From contig NZ_LGCL01000032.1 in the NCBI RefSeq assembly GCF_001306115.1, positions 1 to 64,000 on the forward strand: DNA of 64,000 nucleotides, written 5' to 3'. Position 1 is the stretch's first letter. The number at the start of each line of letters is the position of its first letter. The notes below the pieces were generated by a model. That model worked only from the letters and a program-made list of their open reading frames with translations. It searched no databases and was not told the origin of the DNA. The translations under genes were made by a program, and so were the position numbers. Positions 30,820 to 38,879 of the stretch are shown one piece after another. Origin of the DNA: Ornatilinea apprima. Its GTDB lineage: Bacteria > Chloroflexota > Anaerolineae > Anaerolineales > Anaerolineaceae.

Positions 30820-31542
30820 TCACCCTGCTTGCTTTCGATAGTCCACAAAGCGGTACCCTACCCCCCGCTCCGTTAATATGTATTGCGGGTTGGATGGATC
30901 TTTCTCCAATTTTTGGCGCAAATAATTCACGTAGAGGCGCACATAATGGGATTCATCCCGGTATTCGTATCCCCACACCTTGGAAAGAATTTGATCATAC
31001 GTCATCACCCAGCCGGCATTTTGCACCAGATGATAGAGAAGGCGGTACTCGGTCGGCCGTAGTTGTACTTTTTCGCCTTCCACCCACACTTCCCGGCGGC
31101 CAAAATCGATTTTCAGGCGGTCATCCACCTCAATAAGCTCTTTCGAGCCCGAACCCGCCAATTCTGTGCGCCGCAAAACGGCGCGCACCCGGCTCACCAA
31201 TTCCCGTGGTGAAAACGGTTTGGTCACGTAATCATCCGCGCCAAACTCCAGCCCTTTCACGCGGTCATCTTCCTCGCCTTTTGCCGTCAGCATAATCACC
31301 GGCACATGGGTTACTTCACGCACCAGGCGCAGCACTTCAAACCCATCAATGTCCGGCATCATCACATCCAACAGCACCAGGTCGGGCATGTGGTCGCGCA
31401 CCGCCTGAATGGCGTCCATCCCCCGGTATGCCTCAATCACCTGAAAACCATCATGCTCCAGGTTAAGTCGGATAAACCTGGCCATGCGTTCTTCGTCATC
31501 CACTACTAAAATTAAACGGTTCTGGAATTGGCTCTCCTGCAT
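30820..31542 (-). CDS. OmpR/PhoB-family response regulator
   Basis: A 240-residue two-domain regulator. The receiver domain (8-122) has Asp15/Asp16, the phosphorylation site Asp59 in [13 protein letters not shown], the LTAK Thr and the Lys in YVTKPF. The winged-helix DNA-binding domain (140-236) shows [31 protein letters not shown] and [14 protein letters not shown]. No histidine kinase is adjacent. It is the last gene of the kinase/phosphatase operon, 4 bases after the 79-residue gene. This raises the possibility that its activity is linked to the Ser/Thr pathway, since OmpR-type regulators are known Ser/Thr kinase targets; here that is inference. Confidence 0.93.
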
Positions 31543-31546
31543 AAGC

Positions 31547-31786
31547 CTACTCCCTCACAAATGAAATAATCTGCTCTTCCTCCTCACCGGGAAGAACCTC
31601 AATGAAATTAATCCGGCTAATGGGCCAGATCACCGTGGTGACGCGCGCATCAATATAGGTGAGATCTTTGCCATCCCGTTTGCGCGGATTACGAACAGTG
31701 ATAATCTGGTCTGTTGGCGTGGGAAGATCCTCTACCTCGCACAGCACCGGGTCTTCATTATGGATATGAATAATAATACTGGGCAT
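31547..31786 (-). CDS. 79-residue protein of unknown function in the signalling operon
   Basis: A small acidic protein without signal peptide, transmembrane segment or cysteine pairs. Predicted mostly beta: an N-terminal strand ([12 protein letters not shown]), a middle [10 protein letters not shown] basic patch, and [17 protein letters not shown] near the end, which looks like a small barrel. I do not recognise the family. It lies 9 bases after the FHA gene and 4 bases before the response regulator gene, so it is certainly cotranscribed and may be an adaptor of that pathway. Confidence 0.78.
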
Positions 31787-31795
31787 TTTGATTCC

Positions 31796-32326
31796 CTAAT
31801 CTTTTTGATCAATCAATATTTTAATTCGCAGTTTGCCTAACGCAACCAGGTCGCCATGATTGATGGGATAATCAATATGCGGGCCAATGCGTTGGCCGTT
31901 CACCCGCGTCCCGTTGGAAGAACCAAGGTCAGAAAGGATTATGATTCTTGGGGATATTTTAATCGAAGCGTGCAGCCTGGACACCCCTTGCGAATAAGCG
32001 TCATACGGTGATAGGTCAATATCCGGCAAAATTAATTGTCCCTCCGCCACTCTCCCCAGAGAGAATTCGCGCTTGCCCGAAAGATGAATCATTTTTCCAG
32101 AATCCAGCAGCAGCAGAGAAACCTCCGACTGCGCCATCATGCTGATGTCATCTTCCAGTTCAACATCGGGCAAATCGGTCAGCGGTGACGTAAATAATTC
32201 AGGAGAATCCTCCGAATTCAAGGTTTTGAATTCAAACGCGTCCAACGAAACCAATTGAGCGCCACATTCATTACAGAATAGCGCGCCGTCAGGCTGTTCA
32301 GTGTGGCATTTTGGGCAGATCACCAT
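31796..32326 (-). CDS. Zinc-ribbon and FHA-domain protein
   Basis: The 176-residue protein opens with a zinc ribbon (Cys4, Cys7, Cys18, Cys21 in C-P-K-C and C-N-E-C-G). After an acidic linker it has a C-terminal FHA domain (about 75-173) with F-S-L-G-R, VSRLHASI and LGSSNGTRVNG, the residues that bind phosphothreonine. FHA proteins read out Ser/Thr kinase activity, and the neighbouring kinase and PP2C phosphatase are obvious partners. It starts 3 bases after the J-domain/VWA gene. Confidence 0.92.
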   Translation of the reverse strand: MVICPKCHTEQPDGALFCNECGAQLVSLDAFEFKTLNSEDSPELFTSPLTDLPDVELEDDISMMAQSEVSLLLLDSGKMIHLSGKREFSLGRVAEGQLILPDIDLSPYDAYSQGVSRLHASIKISPRIIILSDLGSSNGTRVNGQRIGPHIDYPINHGDLVALGKLRIKILIDQKD

Positions 32327-32329
32327 AGC

Positions 32330-33784
32330 TCATCTCTCCTGTCCGGAAGGAAGCAACAAAGCTCTTGTTCCATACTTAATTCGTTTATCACCTTCTTGAC
32401 TCATCCGGTGATGTTGTTCAATGTTCTCTGATTCGCGGATAACCACTTTTGCCAGGTCCAAATCACCCATACTGAGCAAGTTGGTCGCTAAATTTTTAAG
32501 ATATTGAGTCGCGCCTTCAATGTTTCCTGTTTTGATGTGGGCGCGCACTTTTTCATGCATCCTGTACAAGTTGATCTTCGACAACGCCTTCAAAATCTCC
32601 GCGGGAGGCTGCCAGTCATCACTGCTATCTGTAATTTTGAGCGTTTGATGCAAATAAATCCGCCGTGGCTGTGCCTCTCCAGGCAGGTTAAACAACAGCC
32701 ACCCATCTATTATTCTAATTTCATCTTTGTCATCAGGCAAATCATTAACCGCAAATTCGCATAAAATCGAAAGGTTTTCTTTATACCGCAGCATTCCCAG
32801 TGGCAGCACATCTTCAATCCCGATTTCGCTGGTGTTGGGGCTGATGCGGTAAGCGTAATTCATAGAAATCAGTGGGTCTTGAACACAATCCAGATGGATA
32901 TTTTTTGCAAACACCGTGCTGCGCACCCCGATTTTCTCATCCAGGTACCGGGCTAATTCTTTGGATGAGCGCACAAAGCTCGTGTTGCCGCCCGTGATGG
33001 AAGCCAATTGATCCAGGAATTCATCATTCCATTCCGCGCCAATGCCCAACCCACTGATCACAATCCCATGCAAAGCCGCATCTCTTGCCAGAGCGAAACA
33101 TTTTTCTTCATCGCCATAGGTGTGGCCGTCGGTTAAGAGGATTAAATGTGCGTCTTGATTTCCGTTCACCACCTCAAGCAGCTTTTTATACCCCAATTCA
33201 AGCCCGTGGAAAATTTCTGTGCCACCGGAAGTTTGAATAGACATCACCGGATATTCATGACGCTGCAATTCATCTGCCGGAGTTGGCGGTAACACCAGCT
33301 CGGCCCGGTCACTGAACGTGACAATGCTGATGATGTCTTGCGGATTCAGGCGTTTGAACAATTGCAGAACATTCGCCTTAACAACTTCCATGCGCTCGCC
33401 TTTCATCGAAGTGGAGCGGTCGATCACCAGCGATATGCAGCGCGGAACTTGCCTGCTAACGTCCATTTCTCCGGTGGCGGTGAATTTTAATAAGCCATAC
33501 ACCAATTGGGCTTCTTTTTTCCACGCGATCTGATCCCTCGACACAAGGAATTCAACCGAGAAAAGCGGATTAAGATCCGCTTCGCTCAGCGTCAGGTCGT
33601 ACCGCTCTCTCCGGCTGATATTGGAAAGGACCTCAAAGGCGTCCTGGATCTTGAGAAACTCTTCCCTGATAGAAGGATCGGGGTTCACATCGGGGTGCAT
33701 GCGTCGGGCCGCAAGGAAATACGCGCCTCTGATCTCCTCAAAAGTCGCGCTTGGAAGCACACCCAATATCTCATAATAATTCAA
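32330..33784 (-). CDS. J-domain and von Willebrand A-domain fusion protein
   Basis: The 484-residue protein starts with a J domain (1-65: NYYEILGVLPSATFEEIRGA, HPD at 30-32, FEVLSNISRRERYDL). That motif stimulates DnaK ATPase. A VWA domain follows (about 113-290) with a complete MIDAS: Asp122, Ser124 and Ser126 in DRSTS, Thr189 in SGGTE, Asp219 in LTDGHT. The C-terminal 190 residues are beta-rich then helical and unassigned. There is no signal peptide. A fusion of these two domains is rare in my experience. It lies between PP2C and FHA genes, recalling TerY-type VWA proteins that occur with a kinase and a PP2C in 'TerY-P' triads. Confidence 0.9.
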   Translation of the reverse strand: MNYYEILGVLPSATFEEIRGAYFLAARRMHPDVNPDPSIREEFLKIQDAFEVLSNISRRERYDLTLSEADLNPLFSVEFLVSRDQIAWKKEAQLVYGLLKFTATGEMDVSRQVPRCISLVIDRSTSMKGERMEVVKANVLQLFKRLNPQDIISIVTFSDRAELVLPPTPADELQRHEYPVMSIQTSGGTEIFHGLELGYKKLLEVVNGNQDAHLILLTDGHTYGDEEKCFALARDAALHGIVISGLGIGAEWNDEFLDQLASITGGNTSFVRSSKELARYLDEKIGVRSTVFAKNIHLDCVQDPLISMNYAYRISPNTSEIGIEDVLPLGMLRYKENLSILCEFAVNDLPDDKDEIRIIDGWLLFNLPGEAQPRRIYLHQTLKITDSSDDWQPPAEILKALSKINLYRMHEKVRAHIKTGNIEGATQYLKNLATNLLSMGDLDLAKVVIRESENIEQHHRMSQEGDKRIKYGTRALLLPSGQER

Positions 33785-33806: not shown

Positions 33807-34703
33807 TCACTCCAAATACTGGACTAAAATCACGCTGATATTATCGGGGCCGCCAGCCGCGTTGGCAGCATCCACAAGCTGCAGGCAGGCCTCGGAAGGA
33901 TCCGGGGCTTTCGTAATGATTCGGAAAATCTCCGCGTCTCCCAACACACCCCACAGTCCATCACTGCAAATCATCAAATAGCCTGGGTGCGGCAGCAAAT
34001 GCGTGTTCACTTCCGGCCGGAAGGGTTCTTGCTGGCCTAATGCCCGGTAAAGAACATTTCGCTGCGGGTGAACAGCCGCTTCATCCTCATTGATTTGGCC
34101 TAATTCAATCAAGCGCCGCACTAAAGAATGGTCTTTTGTTACCGCGCGCATCCGTCCATCGGGGTGGATAAAATACGCCCGGCTGTCGCCCACATGCGCG
34201 ATGGTCACCCGCTCCCCCATTACCAGAGCGGTTGTCAGCGTGGTGCCGCCGCCGGGTGCGTTCTTCACCACAGCCGACTGCGCCTCTTGCACACCTTCTT
34301 CAATAATTTCATGCAAACTCTCAATTTGCGTGCCAGAACGCATACCCAACACCGGAGAATACAGCCGGCTGATTAAATACTCCGCCATCGACCGGACAGC
34401 AAACGCGCTGGCCACCTCACCGTTCTGATGCCCCCCCATTCCGTCCGCCACAATGAAGACACCAAACGGAACGTCGTCCCGGCCGTCGGCGAACATGGCA
34501 TTCAACGTGAATAGCGTATCCTCATTATGGTCGCGTTGCCGGCCCACCGATTGCGCGCTGCCCACCAGTAATTGCGGCGGCGTATGAGCGATCACCTCTT
34601 TTTCCAGGCTCTTAACCTGCTCATTGGAAAGTGGTGTGGTCTGCACATCAGATTCTGATTGTGAAGATTTCTTCGTAAATAATTGTTTGATGAAATCAAA
34701 CAC
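33807..34703 (-). CDS. PP2C-family Ser/Thr protein phosphatase
   Basis: The 298-residue protein carries an approximately 45-residue N-terminal extension, then a PP2C domain with all metal-binding motifs: RDHNEDTLF, VADGMGGHQNGEVAS, GTTLTTAL, HVGDSRAYF, LMICSDGLWG and GGPDNISV. It is a cytoplasmic PrpC/Stp-like phosphatase that reverses Ser/Thr phosphorylation. The gene lies 34 bases after the Ser/Thr kinase gene, the usual kinase/phosphatase pair, and 22 bases before the J-domain/VWA gene. Confidence 0.95.
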   Translation of the reverse strand: MFDFIKQLFTKKSSQSESDVQTTPLSNEQVKSLEKEVIAHTPPQLLVGSAQSVGRQRDHNEDTLFTLNAMFADGRDDVPFGVFIVADGMGGHQNGEVASAFAVRSMAEYLISRLYSPVLGMRSGTQIESLHEIIEEGVQEAQSAVVKNAPGGGTTLTTALVMGERVTIAHVGDSRAYFIHPDGRMRAVTKDHSLVRRLIELGQINEDEAAVHPQRNVLYRALGQQEPFRPEVNTHLLPHPGYLMICSDGLWGVLGDAEIFRIITKAPDPSEACLQLVDAANAAGGPDNISVILVQYLE

Positions 34704-34737: not shown

Positions 34738-36606
34738 TCAGGTCATGAGTGCATACAGAATATGGTCCAAAGAACCAATGTAAAGAACGTCATTTTCAAT
34801 GTACGGCGTGCCGGTAATCGCGCCGCCTGTGCTGAATTTCCACCGCAAACGGCCGTTTTTCGCGTCCAGGCAGTACATCTTCCCATCCACCGAGCCGCAA
34901 TAAACCGCGTCTTTATAAAGAACCGGCGAACCGCTGACCTGGTGCTCGGTCGCGTACTTCCACACTTCACGCCCGCCCCCCGCCTCAATACAGTAAATAT
35001 TACCATCCGCCGACCCGATATACACATTACCAAACCCAATAGCCGGAGATGACACCGATCCTTTACCCATATGAAAACGCCAGATCATCCAGCCGCTTTT
35101 CGCTTCCAGTGCGTACACCGAAAAATCAAGCGAGGCGGCATACAGAATCCCATCGTGAAGTGTCGGCGAAGATGTGATTCCCCTCTTCGCCCGGTATTTC
35201 CACTTCAGTTCGCCCAGGAAATTGACACAATTTAGCTCACCGCTGTCGCACCCAAAATAAACCAGGTCTTTGGTCACATACGGCGTGGAACGGATCGGCT
35301 GCACCGCGTCAAACCGCCACAGGCGAGTGTGCGTGGACAGGTTGACCGCGTGCAAATACCCATCATCCGATCCGATAAAAACGCAGCCTTCGGACACCGT
35401 CGGGCTGCAGCGAATGGGGCGGTCAGTCGCATAATGCCACATCTCGCGGCCATTGCGGGTGGACACCGCATACAGCTTATGGTCTTCGGATCCAAACAGA
35501 ATCATGCCTTCGTGCAGCACCGGCCGCGAAACAATCCCGCCTTCCGCGGGAAACTTCCACAAGAATTCTCCATTGTCCGTATTGATCGCGTAAAGGTTAT
35601 TATCATACGACCCAAAGTACACGACCCCTTTATGGTACACAGGCGAGCTGCGAATTTCATCCTCACAGGTAAATGTCCACAGGGGTTTGATTCCCTGCTC
35701 ATTGTTGATCATGGGAGAGGTATGGAAGAATGCGCTTCGCAAAGCTCCCGTCTTTTTGGCCACCATCAGCAGGGCTTCTTTCATCGCCTCAGCCGAAGGG
35801 AAACGATTCTTCGGGTCGTACTGGAGCGCGGTACTGATCACCGCCTCCAACTCGGCGGAAACATTCGGGTTAATCTTTTTCACCGGCCGTTCATGAAAAG
35901 TGAATGGCGCTTCCAAGCGCGGGTCTTGCCGGGTAAGCAAATGATGCATGGTCGCCCCCAAAGCGTAAATATCGGCAACCGGGCTGGCCTCGCCGCGGTA
36001 CTGCTCTGGGGGTGAATACCCTTCAGTTCCGATCATAGTGCCTTTCTGACCGGTCTTAAAAATTTTTGCGATCCCAAAATCGACCAGCACAATATGGTTT
36101 TGCTTATTGACCATAATGTTGGACGGTTTAATATCACGGAAAATAATCGGCTCTGGTTTGTGGTTGTGCAAATAGCTGAGCACATCACACAGTTCCGTTG
36201 CCCAGACAATCACCTGGTCTTCCGGCAAGAAGGAGCCAGACTCTTCCAACACCTTCTCCAGATCCATTCCGTTGACATATTCCAATACCAGGTATGACCG
36301 GTCTTGATGGGAAAAATAATCAAAAATCTGCGGAATCGACGGATGGGACAGGGTAACCAGAATATTGGCTTCCCGCTCAAAGTTTTGCACAATCGTGTCG
36401 CGAACCAACGGGTCAGGCGCAGAGTTAATCATCTCCTTAACCGCGACAATTTTTTCCACATTCGGAAAATGCAAATCCTTTGCCCGGTAAACCGAACCCA
36501 TACCCCCCAGGCCAACCACATCACGGATCAAGTACCGATCCATCAAAACGGTGCCGGGCGCTAATTGCTTCTCAGGTCTTTGATTACTGCTAAAACTTTG
36601 TGTCAT
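34738..36606 (-). CDS. Ser/Thr protein kinase fused to an eight-bladed PQQ-type beta-propeller
   Basis: Residues about 25-285 are a bacterial Hanks-type kinase: glycine loop GLGGMGSVY, Lys57 in VAVKEM, catalytic loop FRDIKPSN (Asp158; the usual His of HRD is Phe156), DFG at 176-178 and GTEGYSPPEQ. Residues 306-622 contain eight repeats of I-x-S-S-P-x-x-x-x-x-x-V-Y-x-G-S-x-D-G-x-L-Y-A-x-x-x-x-x-G-x-x-x-W. The first strand (K-P-L-W-T-F) completes the last blade, which lacks its own W strand. No transmembrane segment separates the domains, so the propeller is predicted cytoplasmic. An ATG 60 bases upstream with AAGG is a possible alternative start. First gene of the operon. Confidence 0.93.
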   Translation of the reverse strand: MTQSFSSNQRPEKQLAPGTVLMDRYLIRDVVGLGGMGSVYRAKDLHFPNVEKIVAVKEMINSAPDPLVRDTIVQNFEREANILVTLSHPSIPQIFDYFSHQDRSYLVLEYVNGMDLEKVLEESGSFLPEDQVIVWATELCDVLSYLHNHKPEPIIFRDIKPSNIMVNKQNHIVLVDFGIAKIFKTGQKGTMIGTEGYSPPEQYRGEASPVADIYALGATMHHLLTRQDPRLEAPFTFHERPVKKINPNVSAELEAVISTALQYDPKNRFPSAEAMKEALLMVAKKTGALRSAFFHTSPMINNEQGIKPLWTFTCEDEIRSSPVYHKGVVYFGSYDNNLYAINTDNGEFLWKFPAEGGIVSRPVLHEGMILFGSEDHKLYAVSTRNGREMWHYATDRPIRCSPTVSEGCVFIGSDDGYLHAVNLSTHTRLWRFDAVQPIRSTPYVTKDLVYFGCDSGELNCVNFLGELKWKYRAKRGITSSPTLHDGILYAASLDFSVYALEAKSGWMIWRFHMGKGSVSSPAIGFGNVYIGSADGNIYCIEAGGGREVWKYATEHQVSGSPVLYKDAVYCGSVDGKMYCLDAKNGRLRWKFSTGGAITGTPYIENDVLYIGSLDHILYALMT

Positions 36607-36725
36607 GCGTAACGTATCCAGCCTAGCCTCCCAATCGAAGGACAAAAAGCACGTCCCCCATTGCATGTTGATCTACCTTGTCCGTTTTTTTGATATCAAA
36701 TTGGGTTTAACAGGAGCCTCGTTAA

Positions 36726-36754
36726 ATTATAAGCACCCTGATATATTATTGCAA
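36726..36754 (-). promoter_or_regulatory. Strong sigma70-type promoter of the signalling operon
   Basis: On the minus strand TTGCAA and a perfect TATAAT are separated by exactly 17 bases. Transcription would start near 36719, leaving a leader of about 110 bases (about 50 if the upstream ATG at 36666 is used). Confidence 0.8.
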
Positions 36755-37787: not shown

Positions 37788-38879
37788 ATGGAATCTTCCA
37801 AAGTGCCTAACTCGCTTGGAAATCGATACGAACTGCAACAGCCGCTCGGAACTGGTGGGATGGCTGTTGTTTATCTTGCCCGCGACCGGATGCTCGAAAG
37901 ACTGGTGGCCGTAAAAATCTTAAAACAAGACTTTTCCAAAGACGACGCCTTCCGAGAGCGTTTCCGTCTCGAAGCCCGCTCAGCCGCCAACCTTTCGCAC
38001 CCCAATATTGTAACCGTTCACGATTTTGGCATGGATGGCGACAATTTCTACTTTGTAATGGAACACATGCCGGGCAAGGATCTGAAAACCATTATCCGCG
38101 AGCGAGGACGCTTTCCTGTTAAAGAAGCCATGAGCCTGATCATCCAGGCCGCCGAAGGCCTCGGTTACGCGCATCGCGCCGGACTGGTCCACTGCGACGT
38201 GAAACCGCAGAACTTCCTGGTCACCCACGACCAGCAGTTAAAGGTGACCGATTTCGGCATCGCCCGCGCCCTCAGCACCATCCATCCCGAAGAAAAATCG
38301 GATGTGGTGTGGGGCACACCGCAGTATTTTTCCCCCGAACAAGCCGCCGGATTGGCGCCTTCGCCAGCCTCCGATGTCTATTCCCTGGGCGTGATTCTAT
38401 ACGAAATGCTCACCGGCCGCCTGCCGTTCATCGCCGATGACCCCGAAGAACTGGCGCGACTTCACCGTGAAGCCGAACCGGTTCCTCCCCGCCAGATCAA
38501 CCCCAAAATTCCCGAGCGGCTTGAAAAAGTCATTCTCAAGGTCCTTTCAAAAGAACCATCCGCCCGCTACCGCACAGCCGACCAGTTTGCCCGCATTTTG
38601 AAAACGGTCAACCTTGAAATCGCCGACCAGGCAACCATCCCTCCCCATCCGGTTGTCCAGCAGGCAGCCCCGGCCGTTTCCTACATCCCCCCACGCATTG
38701 ACCTGAACCATGCGGCTGCGACATCATCCGCTCCGATCGAGATTCCCCAGGGGGAGCCTCTCGAAGAAGTGCGCCAAATTGACTGGATTACGATCCTTCT
38801 GGGATTAGGCGCGGCTCTCGCGGTTGGCGGTCTGATCCCCTTTGGTCTGTACGTCTGGCTTACATTATCCGCTCAATGA
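37788..38879 (+). CDS. Tail-anchored Ser/Thr protein kinase with an HCD catalytic loop
   Basis: The kinase domain (14-270) has the glycine loop GTGGMAVVY, Lys43 in VAVKILK, catalytic loop HCDVKPQN (His135, Asp137; Arg of HRD replaced by Cys136), DFG 155-157 and GTPQYFSPEQ. A Pro/Ala-rich linker and one transmembrane helix (about 335-358) leave almost nothing outside, so unlike PknB-type receptors it has no sensor domain. Lack of the HRD Arg suggests it does not need activation-loop phosphorylation. The stop overlaps the start region of rpe. It is divergent from the SH3b protein gene. Confidence 0.92.
   Translation: MESSKVPNSLGNRYELQQPLGTGGMAVVYLARDRMLERLVAVKILKQDFSKDDAFRERFRLEARSAANLSHPNIVTVHDFGMDGDNFYFVMEHMPGKDLKTIIRERGRFPVKEAMSLIIQAAEGLGYAHRAGLVHCDVKPQNFLVTHDQQLKVTDFGIARALSTIHPEEKSDVVWGTPQYFSPEQAAGLAPSPASDVYSLGVILYEMLTGRLPFIADDPEELARLHREAEPVPPRQINPKIPERLEKVILKVLSKEPSARYRTADQFARILKTVNLEIADQATIPPHPVVQQAAPAVSYIPPRIDLNHAAATSSAPIEIPQGEPLEEVRQIDWITILLGLGAALAVGGLIPFGLYVWLTLSAQ

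Follow-up and report, generated by a model that had tools for sequence, protein, structure and literature searches.

The window analysed here is a stretch of 64,000 nucleotides from Ornatilinea apprima (contig NZ_LGCL01000032.1, positions 1 to 64,000), and it contains a row of six genes on the minus strand. In the order of transcription, they encode a Ser/Thr kinase that carries a PQQ/BamB-type beta-propeller (34738..36666), a PP2C phosphatase (33807..34703), a protein with a J domain and a VWA domain (J-VWA, 32330..33784), a protein with a zinc ribbon and an FHA domain, i.e., an ArnA-like architecture (Zn-FHA, 31796..32326), a 79-residue protein (31547..31786) and an OmpR-family response regulator (30820..31542), which is the final gene of the conserved block. 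The 79-residue protein belongs to no Pfam family, and the four other neighbours of J-VWA were assigned with Pfam. The gaps between the genes, from the kinase to the regulator, are 34, 22, 3, 9 and 4 bases. A promoter-like site, TTGCAA-17-TATAAT, is present on the same strand some 60 bases ahead of where the kinase gene starts (36726..36754), in a consensus scan that returned 13 sites in the region versus 7.4 expected; consensus scanning also places a strong terminator-like hairpin beyond a thioredoxin gene further downstream. Another Ser/Thr kinase gene, assigned by its Pfam Pkinase match (37788-38879), is on the plus strand, opposite and upstream of the operon.

The J-VWA gene has a TTG start and encodes 484 amino acids in a frame uninterrupted by stops. 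Residues 2-63 (33596..33781, minus strand, like all of the features of this gene) match the Pfam DnaJ family (PF00226) with 65.3 bits, compared to a cut-off of 27.8 (E 5.5e-18), and the HPD signature is at residues 30-32 (33689-33697). Residues 118-277 (32954..33433) match the Pfam VWA family (PF00092) with 63.2 bits and a cut-off of 23.8 (E 4.8e-17). The MIDAS of the VWA domain is complete and consists of D122-x-S124-x-S126 (33407-33421), T189 (33218-33220) and D219 (33128-33130); these five residues are invariant in all 101 aligned relatives. An earlier note on this DNA had described a J domain joined to a VWA domain with the HPD and five MIDAS ligands in place, had named a DnaJ profile score below threshold for the first 65 residues as a refutation and had held that both domains look functional. 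As indicated above, the DnaJ score is far from falling below its threshold, both domains are real and conserved and no product of chance, and their key residues are kept; judged by sequence, the two domains are apparently functional.

The kinase scores 231 bits with the NCBIfam AfsK model, which is short of the 1300-bit cut-off, the phosphatase scores 214 bits with the Stp1 model (cut-off 230), and the response regulator scores 230 bits with the MtrA model (cut-off 300). The four cysteines and the FHA pocket residues (GR, S-R-H and N) of Zn-FHA are invariant in all 40 aligned rows. When Zn-FHA was searched as a single sequence, a weak match in two stretches to ArnA (5a8i) was found, with an E of 0.0013; on the FHA part alone, several other FHA domains, with mycobacterial ones first, slightly outscored ArnA.

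The gene for the 79-residue protein is nearly always between the FHA and the response regulator genes, and 49 aligned relatives have 49-76% identity to the window copy. The window copy has no Pfam match, and for the family of 50 members five Pfam families were listed, each for one member and at E 0.16 or worse. Its AlphaFold model is a five-stranded barrel (pLDDT 89.1), and among solved structures Sm/LSm proteins and a designed protein come nearest to it. These matches are weak (best Foldseek E 0.03 and best Z 7.2), and the model gives no more than a hint that the protein is Sm/LSm-like.

A scan of named genomes with two seeds, one of which was the C-terminal tail pattern described below, returned 481 relatives of J-VWA, and the best-scoring 80 were kept as named loci. 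These 80 include loci from Anaerolinea thermolimosa, Longilinea arvoryzae, Bellilinea caldifistulae, Thermanaerothrix daxensis and a Leptolinea sp. All six genes are present in each of the 63 well-flanked loci among the 80, and they have the same order in 62. In a second set of genomes, outside the named loci, all six genes accompany 38 of the 44 complete J-bearing copies. The earlier note had placed J-VWA within a phosphorylation operon, and this is borne out by the kinase, PP2C and FHA neighbours, which recur in all 63 of the well-flanked loci.

Some relatives that lack the J domain display similar surroundings. For example, J-less VWA copies in Chloroflexota also adjoin kinase, PP2C and FHA genes. 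Five plasmid loci, four cyanobacterial and one from Deinococcus, were opened, and VWA, FHA and PP2C genes are consecutive in three of them (Trichormus variabilis, Nostoc linckia and Tolypothrix), with a kinase gene next in the last two; the remaining two loci have no such row, and one of these two stretches stops at the end of its record. In the three loci with the row, which are on Nostocales plasmids (L236, L237 and L240), the VWA gene is J-less, the kinase gene is next in L237 and L240, and an ARC6/PARC6 family gene is near the stretch in L236 and L240. An expanded J-less module is present at locus L074, where four VWA homologs and several FHA, PP2C and kinase genes are located within 19 kb.

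Two other assignments of the neighbourhood were rejected. A defence system was dismissed because PADLOC matched the kinase and PP2C, with kinase-type and phosphatase-type models that we take to be generic, and returned no match for J-VWA or Zn-FHA. Likewise, a MoxR-VWA chaperone couple was dismissed because no AAA+ match was found among the 18 neighbouring products.

The J-VWA fusion itself is common in the vicinity of O. apprima. At a match threshold of E 1e-20, 42 of the 61 near genomes searched, the own genome included, have a match; it begins at or before residue 4, so that the J domain is covered, in 36 genomes, but not in the other six. The O. apprima genome has a single J-VWA gene, one full-length DnaK (a 648-residue frame) and three further J-domain proteins. 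Matches were found in 96 of 301 genomes drawn from the phylum, and outside Anaerolineae most of the matches listed from this draw begin past the J domain, which implies VWA plus C-terminal proteins without a J domain.

All 80 of the best-scoring relatives have a DnaJ match at E 0.1 or better. In the alignment of 101 relatives, 62 rows carry a J domain and 59 of these have the HPD. The other three (L069, L224 and L226) have a J domain that is recognizable but degraded, with the HPD gone, and these domains are apparently en route to being lost. A tree built from the VWA and C-terminal part requires five changes of J presence, and at least three of these are forced by supported branches; an unrelated cyanobacterial membrane VWA protein (P0011) was left out of both the tree and the alignment column counts. 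The J domain may have been gained a single time, with later losses. The fusion is widespread in Anaerolineae, and it is old and retained there. The earlier note had considered that the fusion might turn out to be widespread and already characterised. The first is true, with 36 of the 61 near genomes having a J-inclusive match. As for the second, the open-licence literature yielded no published account of a DnaJ-VWA fusion in bacteria, nor of the Chloroflexota operon that contains it, although such a search is weak evidence of absence. A phage origin was also rejected, because only 12 of 50,697 phage records match J-VWA and none of them spans 80% of the query.

An AlphaFold model of J-VWA, built from 80 aligned sequences, has a mean pLDDT of 87.6. 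In this model the J domain (residues 1-63) is followed by a beta-sandwich that is split by the VWA domain, with its first half formed by strands within residues 75-103 and its second by strands within residues 291-385 (32630..32914), and then by a bundle of helices at residues 395-475 (32360..32602). Foldseek and VIA-align both support the sandwich. The best structural match is a VWA protein from Catenulispora (4fx5), with Z 33.9 and an rmsd of 3.8 over 390 aligned residues. ArnB from the ArnAB complex (8s05_B), aligned with residues 73..479 of the model, gives Z 30.4 and an rmsd of 4.1 over 368 residues, and an ArnB paralog (5a8j) gives Z 26.4 and an rmsd of 4.3 over 350 residues. Sec23/24 proteins are next in the Foldseek list, with E about 1e-12 and TM-scores of 0.40-0.44 by query length. 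According to the model, the C-terminus of J-VWA thus consists of the second half of the sandwich and a helix bundle. ArnB has the same arrangement, and by fold the bundle is the counterpart of its regulatory helix bundle.

At the sequence level the resemblance is much more limited. When the family profile was compared with PDB sequences, ArnB came out best once matches to the J domain were set aside (E 2e-21), for the VWA part only. The C-terminal region has no Pfam match and the last 106 residues have no match among PDB sequences. The family profile was not significantly similar to a 62-residue piece of the ArnB helix bundle (probability 1.2%, E 0.046). The ArnB_C model (PF18677) does not match the window protein at E 1, is touched by only two of the best 80 of 481 relatives (best E 0.021) and has no match in 21 genomes of the phylum. 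It is because this sequence model fails that J-VWA is not filed as an ArnB. The earlier note had recognised no match for the C-terminal 190 residues, and this stands for the sequence, with no Pfam match and no PDB match of the last 106 residues, but not for the fold, which is ArnB-like in the model. J-VWA has the ArnB fold in this model and probably works like ArnB.

The zinc-FHA neighbour and the ArnB-like fold together suggest a parallel with ArnA and ArnB that the earlier note overlooked. The helix bundle of ArnB carries threonines that are phosphorylated by ArnC, and the FHA domain of ArnA binds the phosphorylated bundle (available part of PMC12852372; for Sulfolobus, also the available part of PMC6509490). 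The zinc finger of ArnA binds unphosphorylated ArnB (PMC12852372, same part), and dephosphorylation by PP2A dissociates the ArnA/ArnB complexes (available part of PMC7472852). By analogy, we think it rather probable that the operon encodes a bacterial ArnAB-like phosphothreonine switch that has its own kinase and phosphatase and in which the J domain of the ArnB-like scaffold recruits DnaK. The scaffold would be J-VWA, with its VWA domain set in the beta-sandwich, its helix bundle and C-terminal tail, and an added J domain at the N-terminus. The propeller-bearing kinase would phosphorylate the C-terminal region, most likely at Thr473. Zn-FHA, as the counterpart of ArnA, would dock by its zinc ribbon on the unphosphorylated scaffold and by its FHA domain once the threonine is phosphorylated, and PP2C would reset the scaffold and so close the phosphorylation cycle within the operon. 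The domains, the conserved catalytic and binding residues, the conservation of the operon and the fold are observations, and the docking steps of this cycle are the part that we infer from ArnA and ArnB. The output would probably be via the OmpR-family regulator, which is a guess from the gene order.

Thr473 is located in the C-terminal tail of J-VWA, K-x-I-K-Y-G-T-R-A-L-L-L (32351..32386), and the motif has a hydrophobic residue at +3. Many FHA domains prefer a hydrophobic residue at this position. The column is Thr in 93 of the 101 aligned relatives. In the best 80 of 481 loci a regular expression finds the tail in 76, and Thr473 is present in all 80 rows of an alignment, referred to as A2, of the window protein and 79 of these loci (L169 was omitted); these counts are biased because the tail pattern was one of the seeds of the scan. 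Among 84 VWA copies, from which three incomplete ones were left out, Thr473 is present in all 72 that have an FHA gene next to them versus four of the nine that have none (Fisher p 5e-6, with kinship among the copies ignored); P0011 was still included in this comparison. The five copies that lack it form one clade of the tree, and so may represent one event, and they have another T-x-x-L nearby; furthermore, two cyanobacterial copies have an adjacent FHA gene and no Thr at this column. For these reasons the contrast is taken as support only. In ArnB the phosphothreonines T353, T363 and T375 form a cluster in the helix bundle, and the experimentally mapped site T353 is not within a T-R-x-L motif; J-VWA has a single invariant threonine near the C-terminus and no SIETT motif. 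The structural alignment ends at residue 479 of the model and residue 381 of ArnB, a hint that Thr473 may lie near T371-T375 of ArnB. All considered, Thr473 is the leading candidate for the phosphosite of J-VWA.

DnaK recruitment by J-VWA is something that we infer from the biology of J domains in general, and the most likely role of the J domain is to bring DnaK to the assembly. The alternative is that it has no role with DnaK and has become simply a part of the phospho-scaffold that binds other proteins, docking, for example, the kinase or the Sm-like protein. The HPD, which would be superfluous for mere docking, is invariant in all 80 named loci, and J residues Y22 and F43 are kept in all 80 rows of A2, with N34 kept in 68 of them. 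Helix II argues the other way. Its DnaK-facing basic pair, K26 and R27 in E. coli DnaJ, is gone in most of the 80 rows, where position 23 is Phe in 50 and position 24 is acidic (Glu or Asp) in 51, while Arg or Lys at positions 19, 27 and 28 is kept in most rows. A DnaJ-like protein encoded in the own genome (L004) has A-Y-R-N in this comparison. The alternative also gains from the three of 62 J-bearing rows that lack the HPD and from L071 and L072, in which the entire J domain is gone and the operon is kept. Because such J-less relatives retain the rest of the operon, the core switch would not need the J domain. We consider a J domain without DnaK unlikely, and we retain the reading in which the scaffold recruits the chaperone.

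If the J domain does bring DnaK-ATP to the scaffold, the chaperone might load, remodel or dissociate the assembly, and the switch would be coupled to chaperone availability. One could tentatively go further and propose a chaperone-gated ArnAB-type switch in Anaerolineae, a possibility that we regard with some doubt. In such a switch DnaK recruited by the J domain would pull apart (or load) the complex of phospho-scaffold and FHA protein, and under folding stress the scarcity of free DnaK would freeze the switch and alter transcription via the response regulator.

A second alternative takes the six genes for a phospho-signalling operon of the ordinary sort, where VWA, PP2C and kinase merely co-occur, there is no docking of the ArnAB type and the VWA protein has some other partner. 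Such groupings exist, as in the TerY-P triad of TerY VWA, PP2C and kinase. The actinobacterial GAP1-N2 GTPase conflict systems have neighbourhoods of kinase, PP2C and stand-alone VWA genes (available part of PMC7159879), and PpkA, PppA and Fha1 of type VI secretion (T6SS) act jointly in Pseudomonas (available part of PMC3224232). However, the three-domain ArnB fold and an adjacent, conserved zinc ribbon-FHA partner are a combination that was not found in the available parts of the GAP1-N2 and T6SS papers, and so, an ordinary operon seems improbable to us. An adhesion protein with extracellular ligands, as the earlier note's phrase of metal-dependent adhesion would suggest, is hardly credible and was rejected. 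In its favour, the MIDAS is intact, and the fold search lists integrin and pilus adhesin VWA folds further down. Against it, a J domain that starts at residue 2 cannot be preceded by a signal peptide, DnaK and the types of protein to which all of the operon partners belong are cytosolic, and the nearest folds, ArnB and Sec23/24, are intracellular scaffolds that bind proteins, ArnB even with a metal-filled MIDAS (available part of PMC12852372). The label was a misreading of the MIDAS name.

The ArnAB-like switch with a DnaK-recruiting scaffold, if correct, would matter in several ways. It would say what an operon that is widely conserved in Chloroflexota is, and it would correct the adhesion label that such VWA proteins draw. 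A bacterial counterpart of ArnAB whose kinase, scaffold, reader and phosphatase are all encoded in a single operon would be a compact, testable system. ArnA and ArnB form a well-studied phospho-switch of archaea, and the mechanism downstream of them is described as unknown (available part of PMC12852372). The presence of a J domain hints at a direct link to Hsp70 that is not found in ArnAB. If the chaperone-gated form were true, the class would have a bacterial pathway of its own in which Hsp70 status and Ser/Thr phosphorylation are joined in one protein.

Of the known systems, ArnB and ArnA from the archaellum regulatory network of Sulfolobus acidocaldarius are the closest. They share with the operon a VWA protein divided into a sandwich and a helix bundle, an intact MIDAS, a partner gene for a zinc ribbon plus FHA protein, and a kinase and a phosphatase that act on the pair, the last being a prediction here. 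They differ in that ArnB has no J domain and J-VWA has no match to the ArnB_C sequence model, in that the phosphatase is PP2A there and PP2C here, with kinase and phosphatase genes in the operon here, and in that the SIETT sites of ArnB have no alignable counterpart in J-VWA, which has one tail threonine instead. The Catenulispora acidiphila VWA protein 4fx5 has the same three-domain fold (the Z of 33.9 over 390 residues given above); it and E. coli YfbK are named as structural orthologs of ArnB in the available part of PMC12852372, where no J domain or FHA partner is described for either.

The same part of that paper draws a parallel between ArnB and Sec23/Sec24 of the COPII coat, which share with J-VWA a VWA domain, a beta-sandwich and a helical core and which have a zinc finger; however, they are eukaryotic, have a gelsolin domain and lack a J domain and a phospho-switch of this kind. 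The GAP1-N2 systems resemble the operon in the kinase, PP2C and stand-alone VWA neighbourhoods noted above. Separately from these neighbourhoods, they have fusions of a DnaJ domain with FNIII proteins, encoded next to HSP70. In the available part of PMC7159879 the partners of DnaJ are of the FNIII or TPR type and not VWA, and no GTPase gene was found among the 18 neighbouring products scanned around J-VWA. The threonine phosphorylation pathway of T6SS (PpkA, PppA and Fha1) also brings together a kinase, a PP2C, an FHA reader and a VWA domain, but its VWA is on the transmembrane kinase and faces outward (available part of PMC3224232), whereas in the J-VWA operon the propeller is on the kinase and the VWA is in a separate, probably cytosolic protein. 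We judge that ArnAB itself was already known and that what is new here is an ArnAB-like module in bacteria that bears a J domain.
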